Of a DNA stretch of 64,000 nt, positions 8,941-57,689 are shown piece after piece. Made by a program: the position numbers and the translations under genes. Each line of letters opens with the position of its first letter. Within the stretch, counting starts at the first letter, position 1. Below the pieces are notes generated by a model. The model searched no databases. It was not told where the DNA came from and worked only from the letters and a program-made list of their open reading frames with translations. This stretch comes from Crambe crambe (Eukaryota; Porifera; Demospongiae; Poecilosclerida; Crambeidae): contig OZ004591.1 in the NCBI GenBank assembly GCA_963924555.1, positions 2,294,001 to 2,358,000 on the forward strand, given 5' to 3'.

Positions 8941-11900
8941 AGAGACTGACATGACAAAAGATACATGTACGTAAAAGTACCCAGTAAGCACATTTAATAA
9001 GTTATTTAAGGATCTGACAGTATCTGATAGAACTGATCTCCCCCCACGTACAATAAGACTACTTCTCAGTAGTCACCACCCCTCTTTATTGATTAGTTTG
9101 TGAAGCACTGTGTCTGTGTCTGTCACGGTATGCGATATTACTGCTGACCACTGGCCATTTTTCAACCATTTTTTCTCTTTGGTCAGACAATTCCAACTTT
9201 AGTCGGATATCCTGTCAGAACAAATTCAAGAAGTCACATCATATAGATACACTCAAAGAAGATAAATCATCAGCAAATGTCTGACTAAGGTTGATTTGGT
9301 CAGACAAAATGTCCTATCAAACTGAAACTCTTATTTTGCACACTGTTATCATGTTAAACATTGTCATCTACATGAGTTCCCAGGTCACCATAAGATACTT
9401 GAGCTGGACAAAGTCCTAGCTACTGTGAGGGACTTGTATCACCCTCTTGTGAAAAGAGTTATATGTGTATTCTCTTTATCCCCCAGACACTTGTGTATAA
9501 GGGGAGGTGAGGAAGTCGAAGTAGCTGGAATGGGTACTGTTAGGACATGGTGGAGTGGCCTTGATTGTGAGGTAGTCTCATTATAGGGTGACAGGTTTGT
9601 TCCCTATTTCCATCCTGTAGTGAACATCTGTTTAGAACCAAACACTCAGAAATCTTTATAGGATGAATGATGAATGAGGTCTACCATGTATGATGTGAAA
9701 AGCAATGATGTTTCATAATCCCAGAAAATGTGCTCATTAGAATTTATTTCTTAAGATATAATAGCACCCTACATAGAAATTCAATAAAGCCCCGAGGGTT
9801 CCATGATATTTGGAAACGTCATCTTCTTCCCTATAATCTTCCACAGTATAGTTGTCCTAGCAATATTTATCAGTTTTCTACACTTGAGAAGACTGAAGTT
9901 ATCGATCCATGGATAGTGACCCTTCAAAATGATTCAACCCACCTTTATGCACTGGTGATTTGACTTCATGATCTGTAAATTTTGTGTTCCAAAAAGTTAT
10001 ACGTACGTAAGTGCAAGTTTGTCATATTTTTATCACCAGTCTCACTTCTAAATAGAGCATAGGCTTCACAATAGGCTCCATCTTCAGCTGGTGGACAGAC
10101 AAGCCACTCTTTAAGTCAATGTATATGGAATGCTCTATTCCATACTCAGTATGGATAGCTTATGCTTTGTTTATTGGTAGATATGTGGTTGATACATGTG
10201 GTTGTAACTGTTTGTATAACTCTACACTTTTAATTAACTCTAAGTGTAGCCATGGTACAGTTTACTTAGGCTCTATTCAATTTGATGCATCCCCTGGAAG
10301 TCTTATCTGAGCACTGGTATCACCCTCTTCTGAAACCAATTCTCCATGAATTGTGGGTTCTGTGATATGAATTCCTTGATCAACTAACTTGAGTGATTCA
10401 GTTGTGTTGTGTATGTTCCCTCTCAATGTGGACTCCATGGTGATATGAAATAACATGGACACATGTTTCCATGTCCTGATTCATTTCTATAATAGGACAC
10501 TCTTCCAGGACACTCCACTAAGTGTCTACATGAGAGATTCCACACCCTCTTTTTGATGTATTGAGTAAACCTTTATGCAGTAGTAGTATTATGTGTATAC
10601 CTTTACAACCTCTGGACAACCAGCAAGTTCTACAGGAACTCCATGTACCATCCCCACCAGATAGGTATGTAATGTGCTATGATCCTACTCAGAAGAATTC
10701 CTGGAAGTATACTTGTCCCCATCAGATACGTGCTGTAATCCTGCCCTCATCTCCTTATGAATCTTCTCCTTACCAGTTACAGAATCCCTTGACTACACTT
10801 CTCCACATTGTCTGACATTGTAGTAGGTAATATTTGTAGATTCATTGAGATTTCCCCACCAATATTCCCCATAATCCGAGCTACTATGAATACCATATGA
10901 AAGCATTGCACTTTTCCTTTTGATTAGTGCATGCCTTGAACCCTTGTAGGACTCTTACTCTTATCTTGCCATTGTTAATTTTTTTTCCTTGGCTGTCATT
11001 TTTGTTACCTTATTATTTGTGGATACTAAGACTTAGTGGTTTGGTGGGTGCTTATATTTAGTTTTAGAAGATACAGCCACCAATTCTTCATAATAAGAGT
11101 TCTACTGATTTGTATGGCTGTCCTGATTGTGGTTTTTTGTTGTTGGTGTTGCAATAATTCTCCATCTTCTTCGTAACTTTAATTGAATGACTTCATAATT
11201 ACCTTCTTGTAAAATGTTAAATTTAGTACCCCCCCCCCCCCAAGACTGAATCTTCCCCCACCCCCTTATTGTCTAGAACTCATCCTTTGAAGCATTTCTG
11301 AATACAACCCCGAGGGAGATCCCCTCTACAGTATGTATACTTGTTAGTAAAACTCTCAAATCTGATAGAACTGCCAAATCTAATGCAGAATCAGATCAAT
11401 TCTCTATCAGTTATGTCCTGACATGTACATATGTGCATCTTGGTTCTTGTTTTAAATCACCTTCTTGTGAACCAGTTGCATATTCTCTCTACACTCTGTT
11501 TTGATACCAGCATTGTGGTTCACTGACAGTTATCACCTCAGTTCCATCATGCAATCTCTCTATGCCCCCTAGTGAAACCAGCATTAGACTAGTGTTGTAT
11601 CACCCTCTTGTGAAACCAGTTCCAGCAATCATAATCTTCTTTACTCCCCTCTTGTGAACCAGTTTTCCTTGAAAATGTTTTGATGATGGCAATAGATATG
11701 TCATTGTTTGTGTGTCATTGTTTGTGTGCATAAGAGCTGGTCTTAGAGATGTTTGAGGAGACACTGTTTACTGTGACCACCAATGGGACAGGAAGGTGAT
11801 CTAGGCTGGTATAGGTGCTGTTAGGACATGCGGAATGGCCTTAATTGTGAGGTGGTCTCATTATAGGGTGGTCTAATTAGACAGGTTTCACTGTAAAAGT

Positions 11901-13340
11901 TCCCTGTTTTCATCTCGTAGTAGATTCATCTGAAATATGCCACTCAGATATTATCGTCTCATATGCACAAAGATAAAAGAGAAACAGAAAACACTACTAG
12001 TTTGGAACCCATGAAAACTCCATTACATTTTTGCCTCAGCACCGGAGTGCTGAGGCACAGTGCCGAAGGTGACTATTGTACATACGTCTTATTACCATGC
12101 ATGATGATGCACATGCTGCTTTGCACGTGCATTAGTTGCTTTGGCTACACAAGCTCTACTACAGTACTAAGGACAAACGAACAGATTCAGGCTCAGGCTC
12201 ACAGTCACTATGCAGTAACTCTACATTGTGAAGAGAGTCTTGGCCATTGCTGCTTTCCTTAAAACTCAGTGAAGGAGTGACTTGCTTCTCACTAGCCGTC
12301 TCTATAAGCTCTATAATGTCCAAAATTAATGTTCTTCTGCCTCTAAGAAGATCTGTTACTGGACAGCTCAAGACTCAGCCATTATAATTTCTTTTGCGTG
12401 CTCTTTAGCAAGTAATCTGTGGGTGTGGCAAGTCCGTTACTAGACTTTGCATGTGTTGTACCCCATACATTTCATAGCACACAAAAAAAATATAATAATA
12501 ATAATGAAAGGCAATTACTTACCAATGAAAAAATATTTTCATGTAATTGATGTCCTTCTCATGACCACCATTGTATTTTCATGCTATTTTCATGAGAAAG
12601 AATTTCACATGGTTTCACTGCATAAGTCCGTTTCATGTCTTTTTACATATGGTATTTTTATCACTTACCAGCTAATCTCACTTCCAAATAGAGCACAGGC
12701 TTCACAATAAGCTCAATCTTCAGCTGGTGGACAAACAAGCCAGTCAATGTGTAAGAATACTTTTTTCCATACTCAGTATGGATATGTAGACATGTGGTTG
12801 ATACATGTGGTTATAACTGGCTCTTATCAACTCTAAGTCCAGCCATGGTATACTTCAGCTCTATTAATTTTAGTATTTAGATTGGAAGTCTTAGTGAGGA
12901 TTAGAACTCTCTTGAAATATCTGACCATGGCCTTTACATTTTTGAGTGGAATAAAGAATATTTCAATAGAATATCCAGTACAATGTAAACTGTGAAGGAG
13001 TCAATAGCATTAGGGCTAATATACTAATATTTGATGTCAAATTTGACACTTGACCTTTTGACCCGTTTAATAGTCTATGGTAGACTGTTATAATCCTCGC
13101 TGTATCTGCTGTGAGTATTCTTGTGAAACCATTCTATATTTTCCTAAGTACCCCTCTTGGGTTCCTCTTAGGTTGTACTGGAAGTCAATCTCTCTCTAAC
13201 TGACCACCTGACCCTAGTATCAGTTGATTGGGAAACACTGGTATCACCCTCTTGTGAAACCAACAGTGTGGGTTCTGTTGTATCACCCTCAACAGTGTGT
13301 TGTATCACTCTATTATCCATTCTCTGTCTTCTTGGGTATA
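8940..13340. other. Non-coding stretch without recognisable gene (copy A)
   Basis: Apart from repeat units W (10656) and the ~60-bp repeats, I see only short non-conserved frames. A block at 10560-10650 has the RRP1 exon-7-like string ACCTCTGGACAACCAGCAAG, so old RRP1 debris is present. Most frames are shared with copy B simply because the DNA is duplicated. Confidence 0.5.
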
Positions 13341-13379
13341 CCTCTATCCTTTATGCAGTAGTTATGTTATGTGTATACC

Positions 13380-14200
13380 TTTATGCAGTACCAGTGTTAT
13401 CAAGTGCATTGAAGTCAACCTCTGGACAACTAGCAAGTTCTATATACAGAATCTCCATGTACGTAAGTATGTAGGTCCTAAACCATCTTCATTGTGTACC
13501 GTACAGCGGGAAACTTTCGAGGGAGAATACTTTCGCGAATTTCGTTGCTTTGTTGCAATCAGCGAAAGTTTTTTCCGTGAAATACAATATATTTGGTCAA
13601 GCGCAAGCGCTCCATGCATGTGCCATGCTCGATTGGTGTATGCAGCTGTTCGTTCTTTGTTGCCATGTCTCTGCTCAAGTACTTCCAGAAAAATCCAATT
13701 CTTCCAAAGCCTGATGGACCACTGTCATCAGTAGCTCCTTCTTCTAGTATGGCAGCCACTGACAAGGAGGTGAAACAGGTATTAGACTACCCTGACTGAG
13801 AACGGGAAGAAGAACACCAAGTCCAATATCAAAGCCCAGCGTGGAACGTACATAAGGCTGTGATCGATCGATCGATCGATCGTGAAAGATTCCTCCGCGA
13901 ATATTTCTATCCATGCTATTCGCAAAAGTATTCTCCCTCAAAAGTTTCCCGCTATACGGTATATCAAAGAATGAAGCTTTAGAAAGAGTTCTCTCCTCTG
14001 TAAAGGTTGATCGTGATTCACTGTCTGAGAAGCCGAGAAACTATGTAGGCACATTCAGGAAGGATTTTATGAGGTAAAAGTTTAAGTTGAGTATTTGCAG
14101 CATTACATTGAATATCATCCAACTTTCAGGTATGATGAATGAAGATGTAACCTCAACAATTATACTTTCACCAAGAAGCCAACAAGAATGACAGTGACTA
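13380..14200 (+). pseudogene. RRP1 3'-end remnant (exons 7-9-like), copy A
   Basis: ACCTCTGGACAACTAGCAAG at about 13422 matches RRP1 exon 7. At about 13990-14075 an exon reads VDRDSLSEKPRNYV, against VDCDSLSEKLKNLA in RRP1 exon 8, but its second half is lost. At about 14131-14190 a short relic of the basic C-terminal exon follows (GAATGAAGATGTAACC). A TA-flanked transposon sits between exons 7 and 8. This is an older partial RRP1 duplicate, also present in copy B at about 57690-58500. Confidence 0.55.
13499..13959. mobile_element. TA-inserting DNA transposon remnant with ORF piece (copy A)
   Basis: 461 bp flanked by TA. The inverted ends are CCGTACAGCGGGAAACTTTC and CCGTATAGCGGGAAACTTTT, extending about 45 bp. 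An empty site is visible at about 18380 (GTGTATAATATG), so insertion duplicated only TA. Inside, an open frame reads MSLLKYFQKNPILPKPDG, then PLSSVAPSSSMAA, resembling the N-terminus of transposase-derived ZBED/KIAA1586-like proteins. A (GATC)n tract lies at 13862-13882. It is present in both copies, so it predates the duplication. Confidence 0.75.
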
Positions 14201-14239
14201 TTAAAATTTTGTATTAATCCACACAATAATATTATTGTG

Positions 14240-15440
14240 CAGAATTAAAGCAAATATTATATCACCAGTGAAATGAGTCAAGATTGATAACTACATCTAC
14301 ATTAATTTTGGTTTCTTGTCAGTCAGTGACTTCCCTGGCACAACATATCAGCTTGTAATAGGATGAGTTCACTCCACAATTATAACCTGTGGTGGATAGA
14401 GATGTAAAAGGAGAGGGAAGAAAAGATGATCTTGTTCTCCTATGGTAGGTAAAGTGTAACCACTATAAAAAAACCATTATACACCAAGTATCCAACACCA
14501 TGATATTACACTCACATAGTGAGAATGTATTTCATGGTAGGTAAAGGGTTCTCACTATAACACACACAAAGGGCCAACTACACACAATAGCTAGTGAACA
14601 AGTGATCACTTCACAACAGAATCATGTAAGGGAGGGGCGAGTATTGGTGTTCCATTATTCGACTTGTGCCCTATTCGATCCACTTCCAAAACGTACGTCT
14701 GTTTGTAGGCTGGGACTAACTGCAAGGGATTTGGTGCTGGTTTGGGGAAGCAGTGGACCACTAGAAGTAACAGTCCATTCATGTTTGGATGAACTATAAT
14801 GAGACACTAGGATGGATAACTCTCTCATGATGAACCTCATGAAACACTAGGACAACTCACCAAGACAATACACTAAACAGTCCTGAAAGATCTGTTTGCT
14901 GAGGTAGACATTGACATCTTGAGGTACAGCTACACAGTTCACATACAAAGAGAAACACGAAAGTGATCAATCTGGTAAAGGGTCATTACTCTCAAAAACA
15001 ATATGCATGAACTTCCAACATTAGTAGTGGATAACACCCAGTACCCTTCCATGATACTCACTATAACATACACATAGTAGTATTATACTCACACTGGATG
15101 GTACTATAATGGTGTATCTCATGATAGGTAAAGGGTTATCACTATAACATACGACTCGTTACTATCATGGACCTTAAATTTTATGTGACCATGTTAAAGT
15201 GGTCCTTTATAGGGGGCCTGGTATGTGATCTCACGGGAGCATAGAATTGACCCAGAATCAACCCATGAGCATGAAACGTGGGCAGTATGTAAAATTATCA
15301 CAACACTTAGTGAGGATGTAATATTCCGCAACAACTCATACATCACAAAGGATGTCCACTTGAGGTCAATAGGAATATTGATGTGAATAGTTAGTCATGT
15401 GACCATGTACTGTTTATTGGAGCTTCTGGAGGTTAATTAT
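14240..15440. other. Intergenic stretch between RRP1 relic and ITPA (copy A)
   Basis: No supported gene. It holds repeated short phrases (TATGGTAGGTAAAG, CACTATAACATACACA) spaced about 60-100 bp apart. Copy B lacks about 270 bp of it (around 15070-15320). A faint paralogous stretch follows the Death-domain gene at about 36560-36650. Confidence 0.45.
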
Positions 15441-20566: not shown

Positions 20567-23500
20567 ATGGCATCTCCTCTATATGAGCCTCCCCCTCGCT
20601 GGGGTCACTCTTCCTCCATCGTAGAAGGAAACCTCTTAATGTATGGAGGAAGAACTAAAGATTTCTTCAACGAAGTAGAGAACACCATCAACTTATTCGA
20701 TCCCTACAAAGAAAAATGGACCACACATAAGACTACAGGTACTCATCCGATTAGAATATGTAATGCTGTAAGTGCACAACTAGGAAACAATTACTACCTC
20801 TATGGAGGATTTGATGGTCATGATTTTATGGGATGCCTGTACCAATTTGATTCGACTTGGACGACACTCAAGGAAAACCACAATAATGCACCAATGAGAA
20901 AGAGTGGCTCTAAGATGATAAGCCACAAAGAAAATCTAATCTGCTTTGGAGGTCGCGGAATCCCCTCCGGACCGCACCAACTTCAATCTCAATTCGTCTT
21001 GAATAACTACTATGATGATGGAAGGGGGTGGACAAATGAGTTACACAGCTTTAACCTCAAAGAAGGTGAGGTAGAATATTAGGGGTGGTTAATGAGGTGT
21101 GTACACACCACTCTACTTCCTTCACTCTTAATTGACCCTATAAATGTGGGAGTGGTTAGCTATGTTGTACTGTGCAAAGCACAAAATAGCAGTCTGTCAT
21201 TATTTTTGGCAATTCAATGATGGTCAAGTTGACTGGACAGAAGCAACTATGTGCATATAAGTGACCTAGTAAACTGATGGATTGCATCCTCTCCAATAAA
21301 TTAAAAAATGGGAGTGACTCTATTTGGACGTAGTACCTATCTCAGAGGTCAACCATTATTAATTTTACACCACCATTTTTTCTTAACTCATTCAGGGAAG
21401 GTGGTCAATGTCCATGTCATCAATTGTCCAGTTTCATAAATGTATTGTTGTTGTGTGCATGTGCATGACCTATAATAATTATTGGACATCATCACGTGCT
21501 TCAGTCCACCATTCTACAACTCAAAATTTATATTAGCTAGCTCATTCTGGATCCACCAGAGTGTCCGTTATCCAGAGTACAGAGGTCATCCACTCATGGA
21601 GATCCACTTGAACTGTTGAAGGTGAAATCAATTATTGGTAACATACAATTTGTCTATTTGGAGGCATCCAGTCTTCAGAGGTCAAAGTAATCATTAAATT
21701 CACACTTTCAAATATTTGGATCTAATACTAGTAAGGTATAATGGAAACTACTTTTGAAATGTACAGTAGCAATAGCTGAGTACTAATTTATTCAACTCAC
21801 TTATAATTGGGTTGATGGATGGTAAGTGAGGTAATATCTATTCATCTCTTTACTCTCACCTTTTATCCTTCTACATTTTAGAATAAGAGCATAATTATTA
21901 ATAGAGCAGGTAATATAAAATGATGTAGTTATTATTGCCATTTAATTCCAGTACAAATTGTGGCAGATAATCAAGGACTAGCTACTTAGACCTACTTATG
22001 TGTAACACCCAACAAAGTTGTTCCTATCCTATGCTTGAGATTAAGCAATGATGTTCCAGGCTCTGGGAAATGATGTCTGTTGAAACACAACTATAAAGGG
22101 TTTATGGTCCTACTGGACCTCATCTCTTATAAATGTCATTCCTGAAAGATTTGACTCTTAACTAACCTCTGAGGATGTCAATAATATTTACTTCCAGATT
22201 TGTTTGTGACTCAGTGTTAAGTGTGACAACTATACAGTATTTGTGTGGGTGTCTATGGTATCAAAATGGACCCCTTTCCCATAAAAACTATAATTACTAT
22301 TAATCAAAACACAGACATAATAAAGATTCATAGAGTCCACTGAAGATGACTAGGGGCATGCAAATTATGCCAGCATAGTTTTTGGCATAATGGGTTGAAC
22401 TTTAATGCCAGCACAATGCTGGCATAATAATTATGGTATTTTTATTTCCAGGGGTTGGCAGATATAGAGGTATTGATGTCGACTCTTGAGTTCCTTTGTA
22501 TAAACTGCTGAATTAGAGTAGTAACAAAAACAACAACAACAACAACAACAACAAAAAACTGTCTTCTGCTGTTTTTGATGATTAAAAGAGGCTACAATTA
22601 TGGCTAGTGGCGGAGTTAGGGAGTTTCTTAGAAGTACCTATCCTAATTCACATCTTAAAATTTAGCACAGCCAGGGCCGGATCCAGGATTTTTAGATAGC
22701 TAGGTAGACCACACACTAGGCCATGGGGAAGGCTGCAAGAAAGAGCAAGTTATTTGGAGGATCCATTTTGGCTTGCAGGCTGCCACTTTTTGAGCATTTA
22801 GCATTTTTGCTTCATAATGCACAAATTGGATCCAAGAAGTCCAAAATTTCCCCCAAATCTCCCTAGCACATATTTGTGTGCATTATATGACAGCATGAGT
22901 ATAGGCAAAGGTGTGAACCATCTCAAAAATTGCTAGCTAGCTATTACACTTAAACTCTGAAGTGACACATACGAGGTCACTGAAGGAAATCACAGTTAGC
23001 AGGGGTGGCTGAGGACCCCAAAAAGGGGGGGGGGCTCAAAATTGCACATTGATGACTACTCCCGATGAGCTGTAATGATATTCATAAAGGTTTTGATTCT
23101 ATACATGTTGTGGCCAAACAACAATGCAGTCACTAATGTGCAACATCATCTGTGACTTGAAACAATGCAGTCACTAATATGCAGTGACTAGACAGTAGAC
23201 TTCACTGCTGCAGTTAGTCAATTATATAATGGGTCAAAAAAGTGGGGGGGGGGGCCCCACCTGCTAAAAAAGTGGGGGGGGGGGGGCTCTAGCCCCTCTC
23301 GCTCTCGCCCCCACCCTCAGCTGCCACTGGTTAGTATGTCTAATGTGTAACCTTGAAAATGAAAGCCAAAGTGTTCCAAAAGATATCTTTAAAGTGACAC
23401 TTGCAAGATCACAGGTGTAATTGTTAAGGAAGTCTCAGTTAGTATGCACTGAGTTATCTAATGTGTGACCTTGAAAGTGCAAGCCAAAATGGATGCATCA

Positions 23501-26500
23501 TGTATACATAGATTCCTGACCATAGCCTTATATGATGATGGCTATATAGTATCTACATTGGTTAAGTTAGCTCATATATTATGTGTTCCTACTTTAGAGC
23601 AGAAACACAAGAAAAATAGATACGGCTAAGCAAATTGCAATATTATCTACAGGCTTAGCTTGGGAACAAAAGAGAGGGGGGGCCCTCAACCCCACCCCTG
23701 GATCCAGCCCTGACAGCATTTGCAATGAAAATATAAAAATGGGAGTGGTAGTGGGACACCCACTAATAAGTACTCTTTTAATAGAAAATCTTGGATCCGC
23801 CACTGTATGCTACACTTTTAAATTTTCTTACCAATTTTTTAAAGCATAATAGGCATTTTTGTTGAGCATAATAGGGCAGGGGTTCTGGCATTGGAGAATA
23901 GCATAATAGGGAAGAAAAAAAAGCATAATTTGCATGTCTCTAAAGATGACACCATGTTTGTATACAGATCTTTGAGACTATACATACTTTATACAGTCAC
24001 ATGTAGCTACACTGACATGCAACACATAATACACATCATTATGTACAGACATTCCCATCATCTTCACAGGATTACCAATCTTTATCTTACTTTCCCCTAA
24101 CTCCCTCAGGGACATGGTCCTCTCCCACTGTCACTGGAACAAGGCCCCCTCCCTGTGCTTACTTCACACTAACGAAGATAAATGCAAACACAGCTGTGAT
24201 GTTTGGAGGACTCCTACCTAGTGATAAGACAACCAATGATGTGTACATCCTTGATCTGACAAAAATGGTGAGATGTAAAGTGTGGTATTAAAATATAGTG
24301 TCTGTTTCCATTGTACATTAATGAAGTAGATATTTCAGTATATGCTCTGACAGATGTGATGTACTGACTGGATGTTATCATTGTAGCTGGTCCATTATGT
24401 CCCCATAGGTAGAGTGCCACCACACTCAGATAAGATATTCATCTATCAAGGTGAATATCCAAGAAATGGGAGGTCAAGTATGATCATGTGACTTGAGGAC
24501 CACCAGGACCAATTATGACCATTGTTTATTTAGTAGTAAAAAATGAAACCATGAAACTTTTAGGTCATTGATTTTATGATCATATTATATTGTGTTCAGC
24601 ATGAAGTGAGTTCCATTAGGGAAATATAATAATTATGACCACTGATGAAAGAAGTTATTTAGAATTGTGAATGTAGCAATCATTTAGGTTGATAGTTCAC
24701 AAACCATGTGTCTTCATTTCTCATTCATATAGTAGCTAGTAGGAAAGTATTAAATGGTCCAAATTTCATATAATTTGTACAGCAGCAGAAATGATAATTT
24801 ATAGTTCGACTTATTAAGCATGTGTGCATAAGCCTAACAGCTGGCTGGCATGCTTGATTGGTAGCAGCTGCAGTATTGATTTTCAGCAAGCAAGCTTCAT
24901 CTCTCCCTGACTGCAAGGTGCTAATAAAGCTGTAACAGAAGTACGGAATTCCCTGAAATGGAACGAGCTACAGCAAGTTCATAACTGAACGACAACTTTT
25001 CTTTTCTTTATAGCAACCATTGTTACATCCCATGGTTTCAATAGATCTGATCTCTCCATTGCTGTGGCAGCAATTAGTCTTTTGAGTTGAGCATAAGAAA
25101 TTTTAACCAACCCGCCATACAGTAAGTACCAACCTAATAATCTTTCTGTTAATTTGTAAATTGTGAAGAAGGGGCTAAGTGATAGTGTTTGTCCATGTGT
25201 ACATGTGTTTATATCATTTGATTGCAATTAATTTTATAACAAATTTATACTTCTTTTTTCCGTCATATCTCTTCCCTTGTTTTAACTACCTTAAAATCTA
25301 ACCCCCGTTATTGAACTCTATAGGTTGCCTAGAAATTCATTTGACAGTATTAGTCATCTGTTCTTCTACTGAGTATTATAGCTCCTTGAATATCAATGAA
25401 TACCTAATTACTGATGGAGACACACTTCACAGCTTGGTAATTGTAATTGTAACCTTTTGTAGCACTGGAGAAAACTGGCTCATCAGGAGGGAGAACCCTG
25501 TCCAGTGGCTAGGTGTTACCATGCTTCTGTCTGTCTGGGTTATGATGGAGATCACCCCCAGATTGTTGTGATTGGGGGGATTGGTGGCAACAAGGTTCTA
25601 AGTGACATGTGGCTACTTGATGTAGTGTCTGGGATTTGGAGGGAGGTGAGTGATAAATTAGAATAAATAATAACAATGGTGGGCACTGAATCATTTAGAA
25701 TTAAAATCTCCCTTGTTGTTCTTCACCTCCTCCCATGTGGTGTTATTGTTACTGTTTGTGTTGAAGACACTCTCTAGTGGCATCATATCAGAGCACTCTA
25801 CCATAGTAGCATATCATCAGTTTAATAAGTGTCATGCAGATATTGACAATGTGTGGGTTTCAGTTGAGATATAATGTTATGTCCTTACTGCATCACACTC
25901 AGTTGGTAGTGTTTCATTATAGGCAATTCTTTCACTTTTGCTGTGTGGAGTTGGAGTAAAAAGTGTGCATTGTTTTAGTTGTAGCTACAAGGAAGTGCTT
26001 TTCTACCAATTATAATGTTTATAGTTAATAGAATTTTTCATTTATCTTGTGAGCATAGCAACACATTAGGAGTTACAAGGCTTTTTGGCAGTAAATTGAG
26101 TCTAGGTATGAAGTAATCTATCAAGTGTTTGGAAAAATGGTTGACATTCCCTAGAATAGTTTAAAAATGACCACTGACCAAGTAGTTGTAGTTATTTTTA
26201 TGATGTGTGAGTAATAACTTAGTAACATTTGTCACATAAATCATTGATATTCACTGCACACATTATCCACAACATGCTGTGTACCTCTCCATCTGCTAAT
26301 GGGCAGGTGCTGTGTTACTTAAAAGTTACTTGTTCATTTCCACTTGGACAGCTATACAAACTTCTATTTCCTCTAATAGTTCAAAACTGTCAAAAGTGTT
26401 TCTTCAGCTCTGGAGTCCTAGTCTTCAGTTAGCTATTTAATTATTCCATTCCTAATTTGCACGTGAATGTGAAATTCATTGCCATGTCCATATACATGCT

Positions 26501-28959
26501 TGGGGTGTGAAATGTGAGGTTACCACATATTAGAGTAATGTGATCCATTTTGCTATTTTAAGTATGTATGTTGCTATGTACTGTGCTATCTTCAAAGTTC
26601 TAATGCAGTGGTACCTGATGACCTTTTTATTAGCCAGTACTAACACCAATTATTGGCACCATGTAGTTTAGTATTAGAGGTCAAAACTAACAGTGCTGGA
26701 ATTAACCATCTAGCACTTATTGGATTATTATTTGTAGTCTAAAGTACAAATTATCATGAAATGACCCCCTTACTCCCTCTAGTTATGTGTGATATTTGCA
26801 TGACATTGTCTTGATGAGGATGTATTTCACAATGGCATAATATGGAGGTTTTTAAGTCTTGTGGTGTGGAGACTAGTGATGATGTGTGTATTGAAATGGA
26901 GGATGATGTCATGGTAATTGTGAGAGGGATGATCCAATGTTATGTGTCCATGTGCAGATCAAAGTTCCAAGTCTCCAGTCAAGATACAGGCACACTGCTG
27001 ATGTATTCCATTTCAATGCAAGACTGGCAGATGTCATTCTATTTGGCGGGATTCCTGAGTGGCCAAAGAATTACAAGTCTGCTGCTGACCTTCCAATGAT
27101 AGCCCAGACCACTGTACTACAATTTGGTGAGTGTGATTTAACTGATGCTAGTCATACTATACTTCATTCCTCCATAATATAAGTACAGTAGAAAGTCACT
27201 GGAGGTCTTTATTTCCATGTATTGTGAATACTTACATTTTAAGTGTGCATATTTTAATGTCTCTATTACCCACTGACTTAACATCTCTGTACAGTGGGAC
27301 CTCTAAATAAGCAGACATGTCTGGAAGAGCATAATAGTCTCTTTATTTGGAGACATAGTGACATTACTGTAAATCTTCTATTTAGTGTGTTACTCTAATA
27401 TAGTGTCACGATCACATTTAGACCCATTCTTATAATCATGGCACTAAATGAAGTTTTAGTATGACATTGCACTAAGCACCACTCTATAATGCAGTCAATG
27501 TAGTCTAATAATAAACTCTCATTCTGTTAATGTGCCAGTCATGATTTTTTTCTGGCATGTTATTTGGAAGATTTATGGTATTGGATGTTCTATAGTAACT
27601 GTTGTTGTTCGCTGCACTTGTTAGGAAGTTGTGTTTGTGGTTTGTGCATGTCTTGTGTTGTTGTGCATGACTTATGTGGTTATACAAGTACAAGCTATTC
27701 ACAAGATTAAAGACAGACAAGTGTGATAGTTTGCTTTAGAATGATTATTTCATTCCAATTCCCTCATTTTTACTCATGCTTTTTAAACACCCTATCATTC
27801 TGGACTTCACTTTCATTGTACCACCACACATCCAAACTCATTTAGACCAACCCCTCTTCCAATGTGCCATAAATTTTAAACTAAATTATGCAGAAACTGA
27901 GTTGCTTCAATCCAGTTTTCAGCATGTAGCTAACTTCTTAATGGGTGATTTCCTTTTCAAATCATTCATTATTTTCCTAACTCCATTAGCTGATGATCTA
28001 AATTGTTCATGTAATAATTAAGGTTTCAATATGCAAGGGTCAGCACCCTCATAATCTTGTATCATTATATTTGGAGGTCAAATTGAGGAGTATTTCAGTG
28101 AGAGTTTCACTGGAGCATGTGAAGCTAGCTTTTTACTTCTTCTGACAGTTTTGCTGCTACAAAAATATTCTGAGTTAAATGTTCTTTAAGTATCATTCGA
28201 CACTTAACATGTTTATATAGATATTGAAATTGAACAGATTGCAGCTGGCAAGCTTGTAGTTCATGGTCTTCTCTTCGCAATCTGCATCAGGAGTGAAAGT
28301 ACACATCCTTGTTTCTTGTCCTTGATTTACTGCTAGATAGTTATAACAGAAGATACTTTACTGTGGATGTGGTTCCATTTCATATGCTGTGTACAGCTAC
28401 TCGATTACTATTTCATCAAGTGACCTCCACTTAACTTACCAACCACTCATTGATAATTGATACTTCAAATAACTACATCCATCATACTTTTCCATTTCTT
28501 CTCCACCATCTTGTGATATGAAGAATATCACTATAACTTAATGGTTAAAAAATGGATATCACTTCTATTTCTCGTCTAGTTTCTAGTTACTAGATAGTTT
28601 CCATGCAGTAACTAGTTACCATATGGTGGAAATTTTTCATTGAGTAAACGTTCATGGATTCAGTTGTTTTACTCCAGCCTATGGTTCACACTTCACAACA
28701 CATTATTACAGTATTTCCCAACCAATTAGCTAAGATTGATTCCTGTCAAAAGCTGGTCTAAACCTCCACCATAAATCTCACTATCATTTAATAACATACA
28801 AAGACACTCTTCAAACCTGAGATCAACCATAACATAATTATTACTAATGCTAATTAGAATGTGTTGATGATGAGTGGAGTCTGATTGATGTGTGCAAGTT
28901 TCCTGACCTCGGGAGTCCAGAGAGAGTGAAGATGAAAGAAGAACTGAAGAAGAATTCCA
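20567..28959 (+). CDS. Kelch-propeller part (5 exons)
   Basis: Exon 1 (20567-21065, start MASPLYEPPPRWGHSSSIVE) holds three blades with the typical GG doublets (LLMYGGR, YYLYGGFDG, LICFGGRG). Exon 2 (24110-24267) has PPPCAYFTLTKINANTAVMF then GG and DVYILDLTKM. Exon 3 (25463-25645) reads HWRKLAHQEGEPCPVARCYH and IVVIGGIGGNKVLSDMWLLD. Exon 4 (26958-27126) reads RYRHTADVFHFNARLADVIL then FGG. Exon 5 (28858-28959) reads DEWSLIDVCKFPDLGSPERV and ends in lysine-rich sequence. Each blade has the R-H...GG...D-W pattern. Introns are 1.2-3.0 kb, much longer than in the 3' half, and carry MITEs. Exon 5 ends in phase 1 at a GTAAGT donor, so the protein must continue. Confidence 0.85.
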
Positions 28960-31900
28960 GTAAGTGTGCATATGTAATTATAGAGTTAGTATCATATCAA
29001 CCCTCAGTGCATGCACGAAGGTTACAGTACTCAGTTGTGTATGTATTAATTAGTGTATCTGTTACATCCACCATGAAGCCAGTAGTGACGACCTCCAAAT
29101 AATACTCTCCAGTCTGTTCAAAGTCTTTATTCCCAGAAAGATGTAGCATAGCTTCGTTACATCTTACTACATATTCTTCAGCCAGCAATAATTCAGCTTC
29201 AATATTGTCTAGACAATACTTTCCAGCATTTCAATAGCTTAATTGCCTTACTCAGAAAACTCAGAAACACGACAAGATTGGTAGTATATGTTTGTCAACC
29301 ATGAAAATGTAGACTGTGTATTTAATACCTCCAACTGATCAACGATCTCCTGCTCAGTATGTAATGCAAACATCTACATTTCAGGTGACATCATGACATG
29401 ATCAAAGTAGAAAAGTAAAATTATAGTACAGAAAACTCAATAATTCATAGAGTAATTGTGGAGCAATTCCACCATAATATTATATATATTTAGAAATATT
29501 CTACGATGATGCCGTATACGAGTTCAATTTGGCGGTGTATTGTTTTGTGGTCTGTGTTGGAACCACCAATAATATATAATGTCTGCCGATATTCTTTGCT
29601 CTTAGAAGGAGGAAAGAGAGTATGCTCAGTTAAAAGAATTCGGAGGCTAGCAGTGTGCGTGAGTGGTAAGTGTGTGATAACACGCACTGCCGCACCAATA
29701 ATAATGTCCTTCCTTGGTACAAATGCCACCAAAATTAACTCGTATACCATAGTTTTTATTTCCATACATGCATGAGTCTACTTACCTTGTGCTGTACAGC
29801 AACGTTTTCTTATGCGATGACCACAAGCAACATGTACTCAGAGCATCATTAACACATCAAAAATAAACATCCACACAGCACATACACCAGCTCAGTTTGC
29901 TAAGCTTAACCAGCACTTGGCCATAGCTGTAGCTAAACTCACTTCACCTGCCATGCGTGTCATTTACATTGCTGTTGCTGTAATGTTTGTCTTATATCAC
30001 TCTTCAATCACCTCCGCATGTAGCTACCTACAAAAGAAAAAGATAAGTCAACGGACATAGAGATGGCCCCACTGCCAATCTCAAACTTACTTTCAACTTC
30101 ATAGTAACTTTTAATAAGCTAAGGCTACATAAAAAGGATGGAAACAAGTGAGCGCAAAAAATTTCATATATAAAAAAATTTCTTCCAAATGAAAAGGTTA
30201 AGTATAGGGATGCCAAAAATCTAACTGAGCTATTGTAGCCTTGTATGAAAGCAATCCCTGCATTTACAACTGCCATTAGCCAGTGGATGTAAATGTAGGA
30301 ATTGTAGGCTCCAGCAGCCCAGCTAGATTTTAGGCAATCCCTACTTAACGGTTTTATTTGAAAGTAATTTTTTGTGCTCACTTGTACAAACAGTTGCTGA
30401 GATTCCCAATGACAGCAAGATCATCTGTAGCTTCTATGAATTGCCTTTTTTATGTTTCCATTTTGCTGTATGTAGTAGTCAATGTGTGCACTGAGGGCTA
30501 GTACTTCAGAGCTTTTAATAGTAGCAGTAATGGATGGGTGATGGAACCCTTCACTTCATGTCTGATCCATTGAATTTAGTGATAGAGCAACACTTGAAGG
30601 AAGGCATCCAACATGGCTTTATTCCATCAGAAGTCGCCAACTTCCTAGCTTATGGAGTTCCGGGATCAGGGAAGACGTCTCTCCATTATTCTCTCTATGA
30701 CCTCCCTCCACCGGAACTTCGCATCAGTACTGCATGCATCGAGCAAGCACAGAGAGCAGTGCTGGTCACAAGAAGCAGTGAAGATTCTTCATCTGAAATC
30801 GTGATATGCAAACCAGTGGAAGAACAGGACCTGAAAGAAATGCTTGCGAAAGAGATGACTGAAGAAAGGATAACCGAAGAAAAGAAAGAAGTATTTTCAC
30901 GAATCGAAAAGACACTGAAGGAAAATTTTCCAGTGGAAGATCACTCGTCTCGACCTGTGTCACCTTCCACTCAAGAGCCGACTCCAGTGGAAGATCATCC
31001 ACCACAACACTTACTTCAGCCTGTTTCAATTCCAAGACCTTCCCCCACACCTGATGAAGAAGCTACTTCGCACTTAGTCATATCACCTCGAGTGAAATTG
31101 CAAGGGATGGATGAAATTCTCTATTTGATGCTCCACCCCACCCCAGCCAACCTACCACGACTGAGAAACCGCTTAGTGCAATTCATCGACAGTGGTGGAC
31201 AGCCCAAGTTATTGGAGATGTTACCTGCATATCTCCGAAATCTCTCCGGTTTGATGCTTGTGAATCGTCTCTTGGAGAGCCTCAGCACCATACCCAAGGC
31301 AGAATACTGCGATAAAGATGGCAAGCTGTTCGAGTTGGGTCACTTCAACCTGACCAATCTGGAAATGTTGGTGAAGTGTGCACAGCTCTCTCGTTACCAC
31401 CAGTCTCATCTGGCACTTCCTCATGTAGAGTACGACGATTCTCCTCCCGACATATTAGTGGTGGGTACCTTCAAAGACCAGGAAGGCAAATGCAAGCAAA
31501 CCAGGGAGGAGAAAAATGCTCAACTGGAAGTGGCATTCAAGCAGTTCGGCAAGAGCATCATCAGGCGATCGAATGGGGAGATCATCTTTGGTGTGGATGC
31601 CACCTCTCGCAGTGATCCCGTAATCTCTGAGCTAAGAGCTGCCTTGAAGCATATGAAATGCCTGCACTACAAGTGCCCAATCCTGTGGTACCTCCTTGAA
31701 GTGGAGCTGAGGAAGCTGGGGAAGAAAGTTATTCCCAAAGAGTACGTCATGTCAATAGCCAAAGAGTTGCATATCGTAATCACAGAATCGATAGAAGCTG
31801 CATTGCTGTTTTGGCATGAAATTAATCTCATCATGTATTTTCCAAGTATTCTTCCTGAAGTTGTCATATTCCAGCCAGATGCCATGATTGGAATGATCAG

Positions 31901-34900
31901 TCAACTCTACGAGCAGCACATCAAGATCAGCGACACTGCTGAATGCGATATTTCCTCCGAAGAAGATTTACGTTTTCGAGACCAAGCTGTCTTTAGTGAT
32001 GATTATGCCTACCACATCAAAAATGAGACCATCCTGTCTGTGGACGAGCTCCTTCTTATCCTTCAGGACAGGAAGACCGTTGCAAAATTGCCTTCCAGTG
32101 ATGACGGCTCCTCCCTGTATTTCATGCCCAGCCTTTTAGAAGAGTTGACCGAAGAAGAGTTTGCTGCTTCTCGTTCTCAACTTGCTTCTCAACTTCCAGT
32201 TGCTTCATCTCTGCTGGTCTCTTTTCCCACTCCTGAGGTTCCTTCAGGTCTCTTTTGCACTTTCATATCTGATATAGTCTCTTCCAGTGAGTGCAAGATC
32301 CCTGACCTTGATAGTTCCACCAAGTTGTATAGGAACTTCATCTCCATCACTCTCAGCATCAGCCCAGGTTCTTTCGGTACTCTCACTCTGTACAACACAG
32401 GAAAGGTTTTCTCCATCACTCCTTACTCCCTCTCCTCTTCTTCTTTCTTGCCAAAAGTGAAAAAGCTTGTTGCTAAAGCTCTTGATGCTTCTTGTAGGGT
32501 GTTGTCTTACAGAAAGCTTCACCAGTTCTCCTTCCAGTGTGAGTGTGGCCAATCTCCACCACCTCATGTTGCTCACCTTTCACCTGACGAGAAAGTGACC
32601 ATTTGCTCCTTGGACTCTGATAAAGATGGATGTAGTCTTACAAAGAAGCAGATTCTTTGGACAGGTAAGTTCAGTAGTAACTATTTTAAATTCAATAATG
32701 TTTCTCATTATTTATTTCAGATCAGTGCAGCGATGTTGCATCTCAGACTGTTTGTAGCATGGAGACTTCAGTGAATGGTATGTGATGTTTACATGATTTA
32801 TACATTTTAATTTCTCCCCATTTAAAATATACTTGCCACAAAATATTCAATGTATGGCATGATATCCACCAGATAGCCAAGAATAATCATTTGTTATGAC
32901 ATAGCAGCTAGTGAGTATAGCCATGGATAAGCTTTTACTATTAATATTGAATTCACAACAGATCATCAGCGTGGGATGAATGTAGTGGGATCTACCTCTT
33001 TCATCTACAGAGGAGAAGCTGTCAGCTTTACTTGGAATAACCATGGAGTCAATCTTCACCTCCCAGAGGATGCATTTACATCTGACATCACTGAATGTCC
33101 TATTCATCTTGAGGCAGCAATATCTGGCCAGTTCCAGTTTCCTGATGGTGCTGAGGTGGTGAGTGGTGTGTACTACATCCACAGCCCTGAGCAGTTCACC
33201 AAAATGATGACCATCAAAGTCGAACACTTCTCCTCTTCTAGTTCCCAGAAAGAAGTTGATGACCTTTGCTTTGTCTCAAGTAACAAAGACCAGCTTCCCT
33301 ACCTTTTCTCCTTTTGTGAAGAAGGCATATTCTCCATTGGTAATCAGTATGGAGCCATTGAAACAAAAAGCTTTGGCAAGTTTGCAGTTGTGAGAAGAAA
33401 GAAGAAAGATCCTTTCTTTCAGAGCAGCACTACTTCTCATAACTTGTATCGAGCACATGTTTTGTATACGAAGAAAGATGACAGCAATTGGGTCATAATA
33501 TATTCCATCATTCAACAGGCAGAACTATATTCCAAGGTAACCACCACAAATAAGAGTACAAGGAATTTTCATTATAACTTACTCTCATCTTCAGATACTG
33601 TTTGAGAAGTTTCCACGAGAGAGCCTATATGATGCAATTGATCAGCAAGTCACTTTCACACAAAGTGAGATCACACTCAATATCCCAGTAACTGGTGTGG
33701 CTGTTAATATGTGGACCATTCAACCTTTGACTGCACCAGTAGTAAGTTTGTCTTCCATGCGTTTTAGATCAAAGTTACAATTATCCTCTTTTTTAGATCA
33801 CAAAAAATGATGTTGATGCATTCAATACTGGCAAGCAGTTATCATTTTGTGAGCTTAATGTGTATAAAAGCCCTGAAGATGTTGGATCTCCTTTAAAGTA
33901 TCATATTGATCTCCTTGGAGCCAAGAAGCCTCATGACTTCCTCATTTTAAACTTTTCAACATCTTGTAAGCTAATCATAATCAATTTTTATTATTAGCTT
34001 AAGATTCAGAGTTGAAATCTTGCTTTGTGTTTCAGATGCTTCAGCTGGTACAATGACTCAGGATACTTTCTCTTTGAAGACTTCTGTGAATGGTGTGTAT
34101 ATTCTCCATCATGATATCAATCAATTATGTTTCCTATTTTATAACAGATTACCTTCGAGGAATGGATGTGATTGGGTCAACCTCGTTCATTTACAGAGGA
34201 GAAGCATTCAGCTTCACATGGAAAGACCATGGCTTCAAACTACATTTACCTGAGAATGCCTTGCCTCCTGATATCTCCGAGTGCTTTATTAAAGTCAGAG
34301 CAGCTCTCTCTGGCCAGTTTCAGTTTCCCGATGGTGCTGAGCTGGTGAGTGGAATCTATTCCATTCACAGCTCTCACTCCTTCACTCGGTCTGTAACTGT
34401 GGAAATCGAGCACTTCAGCACCACTGACACTCCAGAAGAAGCTGAAGAGTTATCCTTTGTCGTCAGCACTGGAGACCAACTGCCCTCTCAATTTCACCCA
34501 CTTAAGGATGGGATTTTCCCTGTTCACAGTCGATATGGAGCCATTGAAGTGCCACATTTTTGCAAGTATGGTGTCACAAGGATAAAAAAATCAGGAAGGT
34601 CAACAAGGCGTGAGCAAATGGATCAGAAGCAGAGTTATAGCCTTGAGTCTCGCAATTTATATAAAGGCTACCTTCTATCCAGTGAGGAAAATCAGGGTTT
34701 AGATTGGGAAGTTATATTCAGTATTACTCCAAACTCAAAACTTCACTCAAAAGTGAGTTGCCCATAATATTCGAATTGATATTTGTGTCTATTGCTGTTC
34801 ATGCCACAGAAATTTCTGGAGAATTATCCCACGAAGAGTCCACTTGAACAACCTGTTATGTTCACGAAGGATAAAATAGAGTTGAGTATTCCCAAAAGTG

Positions 34901-36314
34901 GACTTGATTTGGATGGAGGCTGGACAATCCACCCTTTGACAGTACCTATTGTAAGTGATGATCTTCTTGATTGCAACTTCCTTGGATTCTTTATGCCTCT
35001 ACATGTAGATTCTCAAGTCTCATGTGGACACTTACAGAATTCATAAGCAATTTTCGTTTTGCAAGTTGAAAGTTCTTTACAGAGGTGTGGCTTCCACTCG
35101 ATCTTATCTGAAATACAGCATTGACCTTCTTGGTGCTGAAGAACCTTACACATATTTCATACTGTCCATTTCATCTCATGGTATAGACTAGTCCTTGCCA
35201 CATTTTATAACTTGCCAAGTTGTAATCACTATTATCTGATTGTTTTGCAGTACCTCCTCCAGTTGGAGATGAACCAGGGATTTCCCCAGTAGCATCAGTA
35301 AGCAATGTAAGTCACTTCAAGACCTCATGATCACACCTAACTCATAACTGACAATGATGTCTATTGTAGGTGAGAGCCAGCACTATTCCAACTCCAGAAA
35401 AGACTTATGGTGGTCCATACCAGTTGTCAACTACTCTTGTAAGTGATATCTTTAACCGTTGTATATAATCTTGCTATCTTTATGCATATTTTTTAGGTTG
35501 GAGCCAGCACTGGTCCAGTAACTCCATCTCCTGAAAAAACTCGTGAGTAATGTCAAATACTGAGCTTATAGTGATTTATACTTCTAGCTTCATATCCAAG
35601 CCCTTATGTATTTCTACAAGAGCATGGATACAATACATGCAATACTCCAAGCTATTATAGATATCACTCTTGGCACTTAAAGCTCTCCATTTCATATCAT
35701 GATAGTCAAACCTTAAAACATGCATCTTTCAATGTAATGTTTGAGAAATGGCCAATTTAATTGCTGCATGGAACTGACTGAAAACTGACCCCTTATTTTT
35801 AACAACAAACAAACAAACAAAGCCAAATAATGTTGTTGTTTGGTGCTTAGCTACATAGCTATTTTCATAGACTCTGTGAGTTGAACAGCTAACATACAAC
35901 AAATGCGTGTACTTCACTTTAAAGCATTCCTCTGGGATATCTGCTGATCACAATTATTGTTTCACATTAATAGAGTCTCAAGCTGCAATGATCACACCTC
36001 CTGGAGGGAACACCTTTCAGCCACCATCTCCTTCACCTAAACTGCTCCTGCAAAAACCAACTCTCAAAGACCTCACGAGTGAACTCTACACTACGGTGCC
36101 CAGCGAATGGCGCTTCATTGGCATTCAACTACAGCTGAACTCAGGAGAACTGGACACACTCAAGAGAATGGAAGATAAAGCAGCTCTCATTGAGGTTCTT
36201 GAAATGTGGCTGAAGACAGTGAACCCTCCCCCAACATGGAAAGCCATCATAGATGCTGTGAGACTATTCAATCCAGGTCTAGCTGCTGCACTCACCACAA
36301 AATACTGCACATGA
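20567..36314 (+). CDS. Kelch-Roc/COR-(ZU5-UPA)x2-Death domain signalling protein (18-exon model)
   Basis: Predicted exons: 20567-21065, 24110-24267, 25463-25645, 26958-27126, 28858-28959, 30580-32664, 32721-32777, 32962-33536, 33595-33741, 33797-33965, 34036-34092, 34148-34752, 34810-34950, 35009-35180, 35251-35306, 35370-35438, 35497-35542, 35974-36314. All have GT-AG borders and the phases agree throughout: 5631 nt, about 1876 residues. Order: six Kelch blades (about 1-370), P-loop/Roc-like GTPase and COR-like module, ZU5-UPA twice, Pro/Ser/Thr linker, Death domain. Known families: Kelch propellers bind protein ligands, ZU5-UPA-DD occurs in UNC5/PIDD-type proteins, and Roc-COR NTPases act as switches. 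I infer an intracellular sensor or adaptor in cell-death or immune signalling. The weakest join is 28959 to 30580; the alternative is two genes, the second starting at ATG 30534. Confidence 0.72.
22351..23942. mobile_element. hAT-type non-autonomous element with nested insertions
   Basis: A 1592-bp element flanked by a perfect 8-bp duplication AAGATGAC (22343-22350 and 23943-23950). The inverted ends are TAGGGGCATGCAAATTATGC and TAGAGACATGCAAATTATGC, two mismatches in 20. The 8-bp target duplication and TAG start fit the hAT superfamily. No transposase frame is seen. A (AAC)n tract lies at about 22526-22557. Inside are further inverted-ended elements (see 22672-23712). Confidence 0.8.
22672..23712. 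mobile_element. Inner nested element
   Basis: The ends CAGGGCCGGATCCAGGATTT and (reverse complement) CAGGGCTGGATCCAGGGGTG face each other, flanked by ACAGC on both sides. Outside it, CTAGTGGCGGAGTT (about 22604) and AGTGGCGGATCCAAG (reverse, about 23803) mark an intermediate layer. Inside it, CAGGGGTGGCTGAGGACCCC (about 22999) and CCAGTGGCAGCTGAGGGTGG (reverse, about 23330) mark another, with G-runs at about 23023-23290. No coding sequence. Confidence 0.55.
29514..29750. mobile_element. MITE with GTATACGAGTT inverted ends
   Basis: The ends GTATACGAGTTCAATTTGGC and (reverse complement) GTATACGAGTTAATTTTGGT enclose about 235 bp in intron 5. Open frames of about 90 codons on both strands lie almost wholly inside the element and are not genes. 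Confidence 0.6.
30144..30385. mobile_element. MITE with ACAAGTGAGC inverted ends
   Basis: About 242 bp bounded by ACAAGTGAGCGCAAAAAATT and (reverse complement) ACAAGTGAGCACAAAAAATT, in intron 5 just before the P-loop exon. The 117-codon minus frame here is internal to it. Confidence 0.6.
30580..32664 (+). CDS. P-loop/Roc-like GTPase and COR-like exon
   Basis: One large exon, open from ATG 30534; the acceptor ATTGAATTTAG at 30579 fits the phase of Kelch exon 5. Counting from 30534: P-loop GVPGSGKTS at residues 41-49, then PPPELR and an acidic/proline-rich insert of about 100 residues. The switch II-like motif DSGGQ is at 219-223, followed by LLEMLPAYLRNLSGLMLV. A G4-like VGTFKDQEG lies at 310-318, with TxKD in place of NKxD. 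A COR-like winged-helix region begins at CPILWYLLEVELRKLG (about 381) and continues through LLFWHEINLIMYFPSILPEV. This NTPase type (GSGKT...DSGGQ...GTxxDQEG) is common in sponge, cnidarian and other invertebrate Roc-like proteins. It ends at a GTAAGT donor in phase 1. Confidence 0.85.
32721..33965 (+). CDS. ZU5-UPA cassette 1 (4 exons)
   Basis: Exons are 32721-32777 (57 nt), 32962-33536 (575), 33595-33741 (147) and 33797-33965 (169). The second exon carries a ZU5 domain: GSTSFIYRGEAVSFTW, HLPEDAFTSDITECPIHLEA, ISGQFQFPDGAEVVSGVYYI. The next exons form a UPA-like beta-rich module (NMWTIQPLTAP, KYHIDLLGAKKPHDFLILNF). ZU5-UPA pairs bring Death domains into regulated conformations in UNC5 and PIDD. 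The cassette has a near-duplicate directly downstream. Confidence 0.85.
34036..35180 (+). CDS. ZU5-UPA cassette 2 (4 exons)
   Basis: Exons are 34036-34092 (57 nt), 34148-34752 (605), 34810-34950 (141) and 35009-35180 (172), with the same phases as cassette 1. ZU5: GSTSFIYRGEAFSFTWKD, HLPENALPPDISECFI, LSGQFQFPDGAELVSGIYSI. UPA-like: DGGWTIHPLTVPI, LKYSIDLLGAEEPYTYFILS. Ends of both first exons read ETSVN or KTSVN. This is an internal tandem duplication of a four-exon block. Confidence 0.85.
35251..35542 (+). CDS. Pro/Ser/Thr linker micro-exons
   Basis: Three short exons, 35251-35306, 35370-35438 and 35497-35542, read VPPPVGDEPGISPVASVSN, VRASTIPTPEKTYGGPYQL and VGASTGPVTPSPEKT. The last two look like copies of each other (V-x-A-S-T...P-EKT). 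They form a flexible linker before the Death domain. The first has two possible donors, GTAAGC and GTAAGT, nine bases apart. Confidence 0.65.
35974..36314 (+). CDS. Death-domain terminal exon
   Basis: After a proline-rich lead (PPGGNTFQPPSPSPKLLLQ) comes a Death domain: LKDLTSELYTTVPSEWRFIG, IQLQLNSGELDTLKRMED, LIEVLEMWLKTVNPPPTWKA, IIDAVRLFNPGLAAAL. The conserved tryptophans of helix 2 (SEWRFIG) and helix 5 (TWKAII) are present. Death domains self-assemble into apoptotic or inflammatory signalling platforms. The protein ends TKYCT-stop at 36314. A possible poly(A) signal ATTAAA lies at about 36415. Confidence 0.92.
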
Positions 36315-53270: not shown

Positions 53271-53279
53271 TTTTAGTCC

Positions 53280-57560: not shown

Positions 57561-57689
57561 ACCAACAGTGTGGGTTCTGTTGTATCACCCTCAACAGTGT
57601 GTTGTATCACTCTATTATCCATTCTCTGTCTTCTTGGGTATACCTCTATCCTTTATGCAGTAGTTATGTTCTGTGTATACCTTTATGCA

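Follow-up and report, generated by a model that had tools for sequence, protein, structure and literature searches.

How early animals distinguish foreign or non-self cells is largely an open question. A 64-kb stretch of the Crambe crambe genome (C14:2294001-2358000 of the 143-Mb assembly; hereafter the window) raises it in a concrete form: does the gene at 20567..36314 of the window encode a single protein running from a Kelch propeller to a Death domain, and might such a protein be a recognition receptor? By joining and translating the exons of this plus-strand gene, we obtained 18 coding exons and 1876 residues, with a spliced frame that is open from the ATG at 20567 to the TGA at 36314 and exon borders of AG and GT. 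This agrees with the earlier note, which had read 18 GT-AG exons in consistent phases from 20567 to a stop at 36314; we recovered them as one open frame, with splice sites that are kept in paralogues. The model has 18 exons and 1876 residues because a 72-base exon at 28221-28292, part of a 19-exon, 1900-residue version, was dropped; nothing matching it turned up in the single second-array copy used for comparison. The features are as follows.

20567..36314, plus strand: whole gene, 18 coding exons (open spliced frame; Kelch/NTPase order in 24/24 paralogues)
20567..21065, plus strand: exon 1, Kelch blades 1-3 (Pfam Kelch; 15/15 array-1 copies)
24110..24267, plus strand: exon 2, Kelch (Pfam Kelch; read in 14/15 copies)
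25463..25645, plus strand: exon 3, Kelch (Pfam Kelch; 15/15 copies)
26958..27126, plus strand: exon 4, Kelch (Pfam Kelch; 15/15 copies)
28858..28959, plus strand: linker exon behind the propeller (14/15 array-1 copies; 86% in a second-array copy)
30580..32664, plus strand: Roc/COR-like NTPase exon (invariant motifs in 18 aligned sequences; COR-A below cut-off)
32721..32777, plus strand: short linker exon (spliced frame)
32962..33536, plus strand: first ZU5 module, HFS at 33225-33233 (alignment with second module and paralogues, profile match, HFS)
33595..33741, plus strand: exon behind first ZU5, UPA not detected (spliced frame)
33797..33965, plus strand: exon behind first ZU5, UPA not detected (spliced frame)
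34036..34092, plus strand: short linker exon (spliced frame)
34148..34752, plus strand: second ZU5 module, HFS at 34411-34419 (ZU5 just under cut-off, profile match, HFS)
34810..34950, plus strand: exon behind second ZU5, UPA not detected (spliced frame)
35009..35180, plus strand: exon behind second ZU5, UPA not detected (spliced frame)
35251..35306, plus strand: linker exon (spliced frame)
35370..35438, plus strand: linker exon (spliced frame)
35497..35542, plus strand: linker exon (spliced frame)
35974..36314, plus strand: last exon, Death domain and stop, of the type common to copies c02 and c06 (homology to Pfam-Death places; paralogue alignment)

The domain search of the 1876-residue model that the earlier note had called for was run, placing Kelch over the Pfam cut-off and COR-A and ZU5 under theirs, with no match to Roc, Death or UPA. 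The order claimed in that note (Kelch, Roc/COR-like NTPase, two ZU5-UPA modules and Death in one gene) was upheld, except that the UPA parts found no Pfam match in the full protein.

The gene is a member of a tandem family. Among the best 64 of 481 candidates, from which NTPase-exon counts were taken, at least 15 copies including the 20567..36314 gene lie on the plus strand at C14:2.03-2.61 Mb (array 1; NTPase exons 93-98% identical to 30580..32664), and at least nine, 82-83% identical and all on the plus strand, lie at C14:5.38-5.71 Mb (the second array). At least 35 further NTPase matches, at 27-30%, were located on other contigs, and broken NTPase copies at C14:6.35 Mb and C6:0.86 Mb. In all 24 copies of the two arrays a Kelch part stands upstream and ZU5 downstream, with Kelch exon 1 preceding the NTPase exon by 8.4-12.8 kb in 15/15 array-1 copies and by 6.6-8.6 kb in 9/9 second-array copies. 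Self-comparison of the window revealed stretches repeated at 42-44 kb that are 83-99% alike; array 1 therefore appears to have grown through duplication of large units. Copy c01 (L021, C14:2029916-2031988) has an in-frame stop at residue 395 of its NTPase exon and is likely a broken copy.

Several further observations concern the arrays and the window. The segments 8930-15082 and 53274-59369 are repeats about 44 kb apart, with longest pieces 98% alike, that have in common a 158-residue open frame without a Pfam family. Two adjoining minus-strand open frames at 51098-53098 encode a hAT-type transposase: its hAT dimerisation domain scored 24.5 bits and its C17orf113-type zinc finger 30.3 bits, each above the respective cut-off. 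Nothing useful came from scanning the window for Rfam families, tRNAs, or bacterial promoters and terminators. In the second array, L134 (C14:5370690) and L135 (C14:5701220) have identical translated Kelch exons 1 despite lying 330 kb apart, in contrast to the other pairs compared. A Kelch exon 1 at C14:5506860 and a Death exon at C14:5513037 are 6 kb apart with no NTPase between them among the matches listed; copy L136 has Kelch and a downstream Death exon and no NTPase match.

The identity of the Kelch propeller is unmistakable: the Pfam scan of the spliced protein gave 155.2 bits against a cut-off of 50 (E 2e-45), and KLHDC2 was among the best-scoring solved propellers in the PDB search (E 5e-16). 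Mean identity among array-1 copies was 87.3% for Kelch (14 copies) and 94.7% for the NTPase (15 copies), copy c11 being excluded from the Kelch identity and from the site-pair counts given below. Variation peaks at the residues that immediately follow GG or the R in the RxxH motif, and up to eight different amino acids occur at a single Kelch position in array 1. We defined face classes, which we take to follow KEAP1 contact positions and which were written after array 1 had been seen; with these classes, pN/pS in array 1 was 1.78 at 54 face codons (bootstrap 1.06-3.37), 0.51 at the other 290 Kelch codons (0.34-0.75) and 0.21 across 695 NTPase codons (0.16-0.26). By loop, the RxxH codons gave 3.27 (1.72-12.0) and the GG codons 1.46 (0.76-2.93), the latter alone not confidently above 1. 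Positions with at least four residues made up 18 of the 54 face codons versus 7 of the 290 others (p 5e-11).

Two tests were independent of the array-1-derived choice of face classes. In ten second-array copies, with the identical L134 and L135 both retained, the same classes gave exon-1 pN/pS of 1.59 and 1.54 versus 0.41. Furthermore, PMC11377542 names seven KLHDC2 pocket residues; carried over by alignment, all seven fell on variable positions, with a mean of 4.0 states versus 1.63 (p 1.1e-4), and sliding this set by one to four positions gave means of 1.3-2.9 states. Comparison of paralogous sequences has thus shown that variation is concentrated on what is predicted to be the ligand face of the propeller, and we infer that this face binds ligands. 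The recognition role that had been proposed for the Kelch part is strengthened because the variation among paralogues is focused there.

Could the propeller vary through relaxed constraint or the decay of copies, and not through diversifying selection? Most of the Kelch part does exceed the NTPase in pN/pS (0.51 against 0.21), and the stop in the NTPase exon of c01 would fit decay; however, the variation is focal, lies on one face and is repeated in the second array, the Kelch exons read without stops or splice-site losses, and the RxxH-loop codons reach 3.27 with a lower bound of 1.72. We regard this explanation as unlikely. Exchange between copies may also have contributed: in 14 copies, 467 of 1653 site pairs within exon 1 and 660 of 986 between exons 1 and 4 were incompatible, which points to exchange between copies or to repeated change at the same sites. 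Pairs of array-1 copies differ by 0-3.8% in the sequence read alongside exons 2-4.

Mutagenesis of the diversity-generating retroelement (DGR) type was considered, prompted by the NNT/NNC appearance of a number of the most variable codons, and rejected on third positions and base content. Third positions vary in 5/18 and 15/36 face codons, when a DGR needs them fixed, and A was found at 82% and 59% of variable sites, when the template-adenine rule of a DGR needs it at all of them.

The propeller and the NTPase are predicted to be joined across the junction 28959/30580, where the acceptor AG is present in 24/24 copies, the donor GTAAGT in 14/14 located linker-exon copies of array 1, and the phases agree. 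Exons 1-4 showed canonical splice sites and open frames in 15, 14, 15 and 15 of the 15 array-1 copies, and linker exon 28858..28959 in 14 of 15; exon 2 of c11 and the linker-exon counterpart of c09 were those not located. The linker exon was 86% identical in one second-array copy, and a linker-like stretch, 41% similar, was found in two genes in which Kelch is followed by a kinase (L131, L132).

Alternatively, the same interval could separate two adjacent genes, a Kelch gene with another end exon and an NTPase-ZU5-Death gene starting from ATG 30534 or ATG 30558. The first of these ATGs opens into the NTPase frame in 23/24 copies and the second was found in 20/24, with an in-frame stop upstream; the 50 bases preceding 30580 are alike between the two arrays; and an AATAAA lies at 29862 inside the intron, as one does in four other introns looked at. 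Such a split is nevertheless quite improbable: the acceptor and the linker-exon donor are kept in every copy where they were located, Kelch and NTPase occur together and in this order on the same strand in 24/24 paralogues, and a similar linker stretch stands between propeller and output in the two Kelch-kinase genes too. Moreover, comparison of the window with one second-array copy revealed no long conserved stretch between the linker and NTPase exons, with matches of at most 46 bases in that region. An extra Kelch-less start could coexist beside the spliced transcript. At the level of sequence comparison, the Kelch-to-Death order is confirmed as that of one real gene with predicted splicing.

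Behind the linker exon, the P-loop, DSGGQP and VGTxxD motifs are invariant in 18/18 aligned NTPase sequences, a set that may correspond to the Roc P-loop, DxxG and THxD-type motifs; a long insert separates the P-loop from DSGGQP. COR-A scored 20.9 bits in its expected place in the window protein against a Pfam cut-off of 35.3. Pfam Roc had no match in the window exon 30580..32664 and reached 20.5 bits (cut-off 27) in one distant paralogue only. The PDB search gave a weak small-GTPase match (E 0.039), and the NTPase exon alone had no match there. In the window protein, neither NACHT nor NB-ARC was matched in Pfam at E up to 1, and Pfam found Kelch instead of LRR, WD40, ANK or TPR sensor repeats. 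The core being Roc/COR-like without a NACHT or NB-ARC match, the protein therefore at most works like an NLR. By analogy with ROCO and NLR biology, the NTPase may gate the Death domain. Upstream of a distant NTPase copy (L130, C15:5438500-5445400), the 6.8 kb read gave no match to Kelch; fibronectin III was matched weakly there, at 19 of 25 bits, and unassigned open frames resemble Death-fold domains by eye without a Pfam Death match.

In the Pfam scan of the full protein, ZU5 was matched at the second module with 20.1 bits against a cut-off of 21, and the first module had no Pfam match of its own. Six of 11 family modules matched Pfam ZU5 (best E 0.0046), and the family ZU5 profile matched ZU5s of the same genome in a profile-profile comparison (E 2.1e-7); the 20567..36314 gene itself is absent from the genome's 64 ZU5 places. 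Its ZU5 score alone is just under the Pfam cut-off, and together with the profile-profile match it places the modules in the ZU5 family. Against the PDB, this profile recovered no ZU5 structure and three chance-like matches. The Roc, COR and ZU5 assignments, which fall below Pfam cut-offs, gain support from the paralogues.

In both modules of the window gene, the ZU5 match ends in HFS. HFS was also present in 25/25 first modules of the family copies examined, one of them a broken copy; among 11 aligned modules it was found in ten, with HYS in one from another gene copy. HF/S occurred in none of six other in-frame ZU5s of the genome, four of which are near copies of each other; L002 and L004 were left out of this comparison as not in frame. 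As described in PMC3210808, PIDD cuts itself at HF/S. The shared motif makes the ZU5 modules probable self-cutting domains and hints that the receptor may be split at HF/S, its two parts staying associated until activation. In copies c01, c03, c04, c12 and c14, the first ZU5 behind the NTPase corresponds to the second type in the window, and the number or make-up of ZU5 modules therefore differs among copies. Elsewhere in the genome, a single 340-kb region (C3:7485116-7825440) accounts for 24 of the 64 ZU5 matches, and the match at C6:5032483 is inside an open frame of 4537 codons.

The last exon (35974..36314) had no Pfam Death match of its own. At E 1.9e-5 or better, it is similar to at least five places in the genome over the Pfam Death cut-off, and two paralogous last exons scored 24.9 and 25.1 for Death against a cut-off of 22.6; the window exon was aligned with the paralogous Death exons. 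By homology to domains over the cut-off, it is a C-terminal Death domain. A search of the PDB with the Death profile yielded FADD and Pelle (E 0.02-0.18).

A Death exon follows the NTPase in 15/15 array-1 copies, one as a partial match, and comes in two types: the window type in three (c02, c06 and the 20567..36314 gene) and a second type in the other twelve. In the second array, eight of nine copies have a Death exon and the ninth has a coiled coil and a kinase with no Death among the matches listed, giving Death behind 23/24 copies of both arrays and a kinase behind one. This kinase exon (L127, C14:5614459-5615463, plus strand) lies downstream of a Kelch-NTPase-ZU5 copy whose neighbours have Death. 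From their position, the Death and kinase exons are probably spliced to the paralogue genes. At C14:4.11-4.45 Mb on the minus strand, at least 22 kinase matches (72-91%) and 24 Kelch exon-1 matches occur together, and both L131 (4.636 Mb, plus strand) and L132 comprise Kelch, a similar linker stretch, a coiled coil and a protein kinase. In these predicted genes, kinases too are coupled to this Kelch module.

Collectively, we consider it somewhat more likely than not that the gene encodes a germline-diversified, PIDD/ROCO-like recognition receptor, acting from ligand face to switch to self-cut ZU5 to Death. From copy to copy, the ligand face of the Kelch propeller presents a different surface, and ligand binding would be passed via the linker exon to the Roc/COR-type GTPase, whose motifs are present and which may act as a switch. 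Each of the two ZU5 modules, with its terminal HF/S, would undergo PIDD-like self-cleavage, and the cut parts would stay together until activation loosens the ZU5 region and frees or exposes the C-terminal Death part. A Death-fold complex nucleated by the Death domain may follow, with cell death or NF-kB-like signalling as the outcome; in paralogues this position is taken by a kinase or a second Death type. The receptor's likely task is to recognise microbes or non-self cells, using a germline repertoire that would have arisen through tandem duplication, exchange among copies and selection for diversity. A housekeeping degron or peptide receptor like KLHDC2, without a recognition repertoire, is very unlikely, for although KLHDC2 ranks with the top-scoring solved propellers and the variable face aligns to its pocket, the pocket positions vary among copies and the Pfam scan found no F-box, BTB or other ligase domain.

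For the family as a whole, the balance tips slightly towards hypervariable Kelch receptors that form a germline repertoire in an animal and have interchangeable outputs, built on one chromosome by tandem duplication and exchange: a Kelch counterpart of LRR and WD40 repertoires and a candidate self/non-self locus. The interchangeable outputs would be Roc/COR with PIDD-like self-cutting ZU5 and either Death type, or a kinase. The parts were already known separately; our search of published papers found no report of their combination or of a hypervariable Kelch receptor. Such a candidate receptor would have a readable specificity surface, with few varying codons per blade, located where KLHDC2 holds its ligand. 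This makes recognition testable: which ligands are bound, by which alleles, and whether HF/S cleaves.

Among known systems, the sponge NLR repertoires of Dysidea avara and Amphimedon are likewise expanded families of presumed sensors, as given in PMC12909245 and PMC6208332; they are NACHT based, and the word Kelch is absent from PMC12909245. KLHDC2, among the closest solved propellers and with a pocket that coincides with the variable positions, differs in being a ubiquitin ligase receptor for C-degrons without Death or NTPase, according to PMC11377542. PIDD1 (LRR, two ZU5, UPA, Death) and the FIIND proteins NLRP1 and CARD8 also have two ZU5 ending in HF/S and then Death, going by PMC3210808, whereas here a Kelch propeller and a Roc/COR-like NTPase stand in front in place of LRRs, UPA was not detected, and the genes form a tandem family. 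ROCO proteins, above all DAPK1 (kinase, ankyrin, Roc-COR, Death), likewise join a Roc-COR-like core to Death or a kinase, and Kelch motifs beside Roc-COR have already been recorded among them (PMC6320773); by contrast, the sponge gene has a ZU5 pair, a diversified Kelch propeller, Roc and COR scores under cut-offs and a long insert between P-loop and DSGGQP. The receptor proposed here would combine the ROCO switch, PIDD self-cleavage and Death-fold signalling, each known separately. The HNWD, HET-E and HET-R non-self recognition paralogues of Podospora anserina similarly have a propeller and interchangeable death outputs, with top-face codons under positive selection and exchange between copies, as PMC2873952 and PMC4986451 describe them. 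Theirs are a fungal NACHT and nearly identical WD40 repeats, whereas the sponge genes use Kelch blades that are not near-identical and a Roc/COR-like core, in an animal parallel to the fungal use of WD40 propellers.
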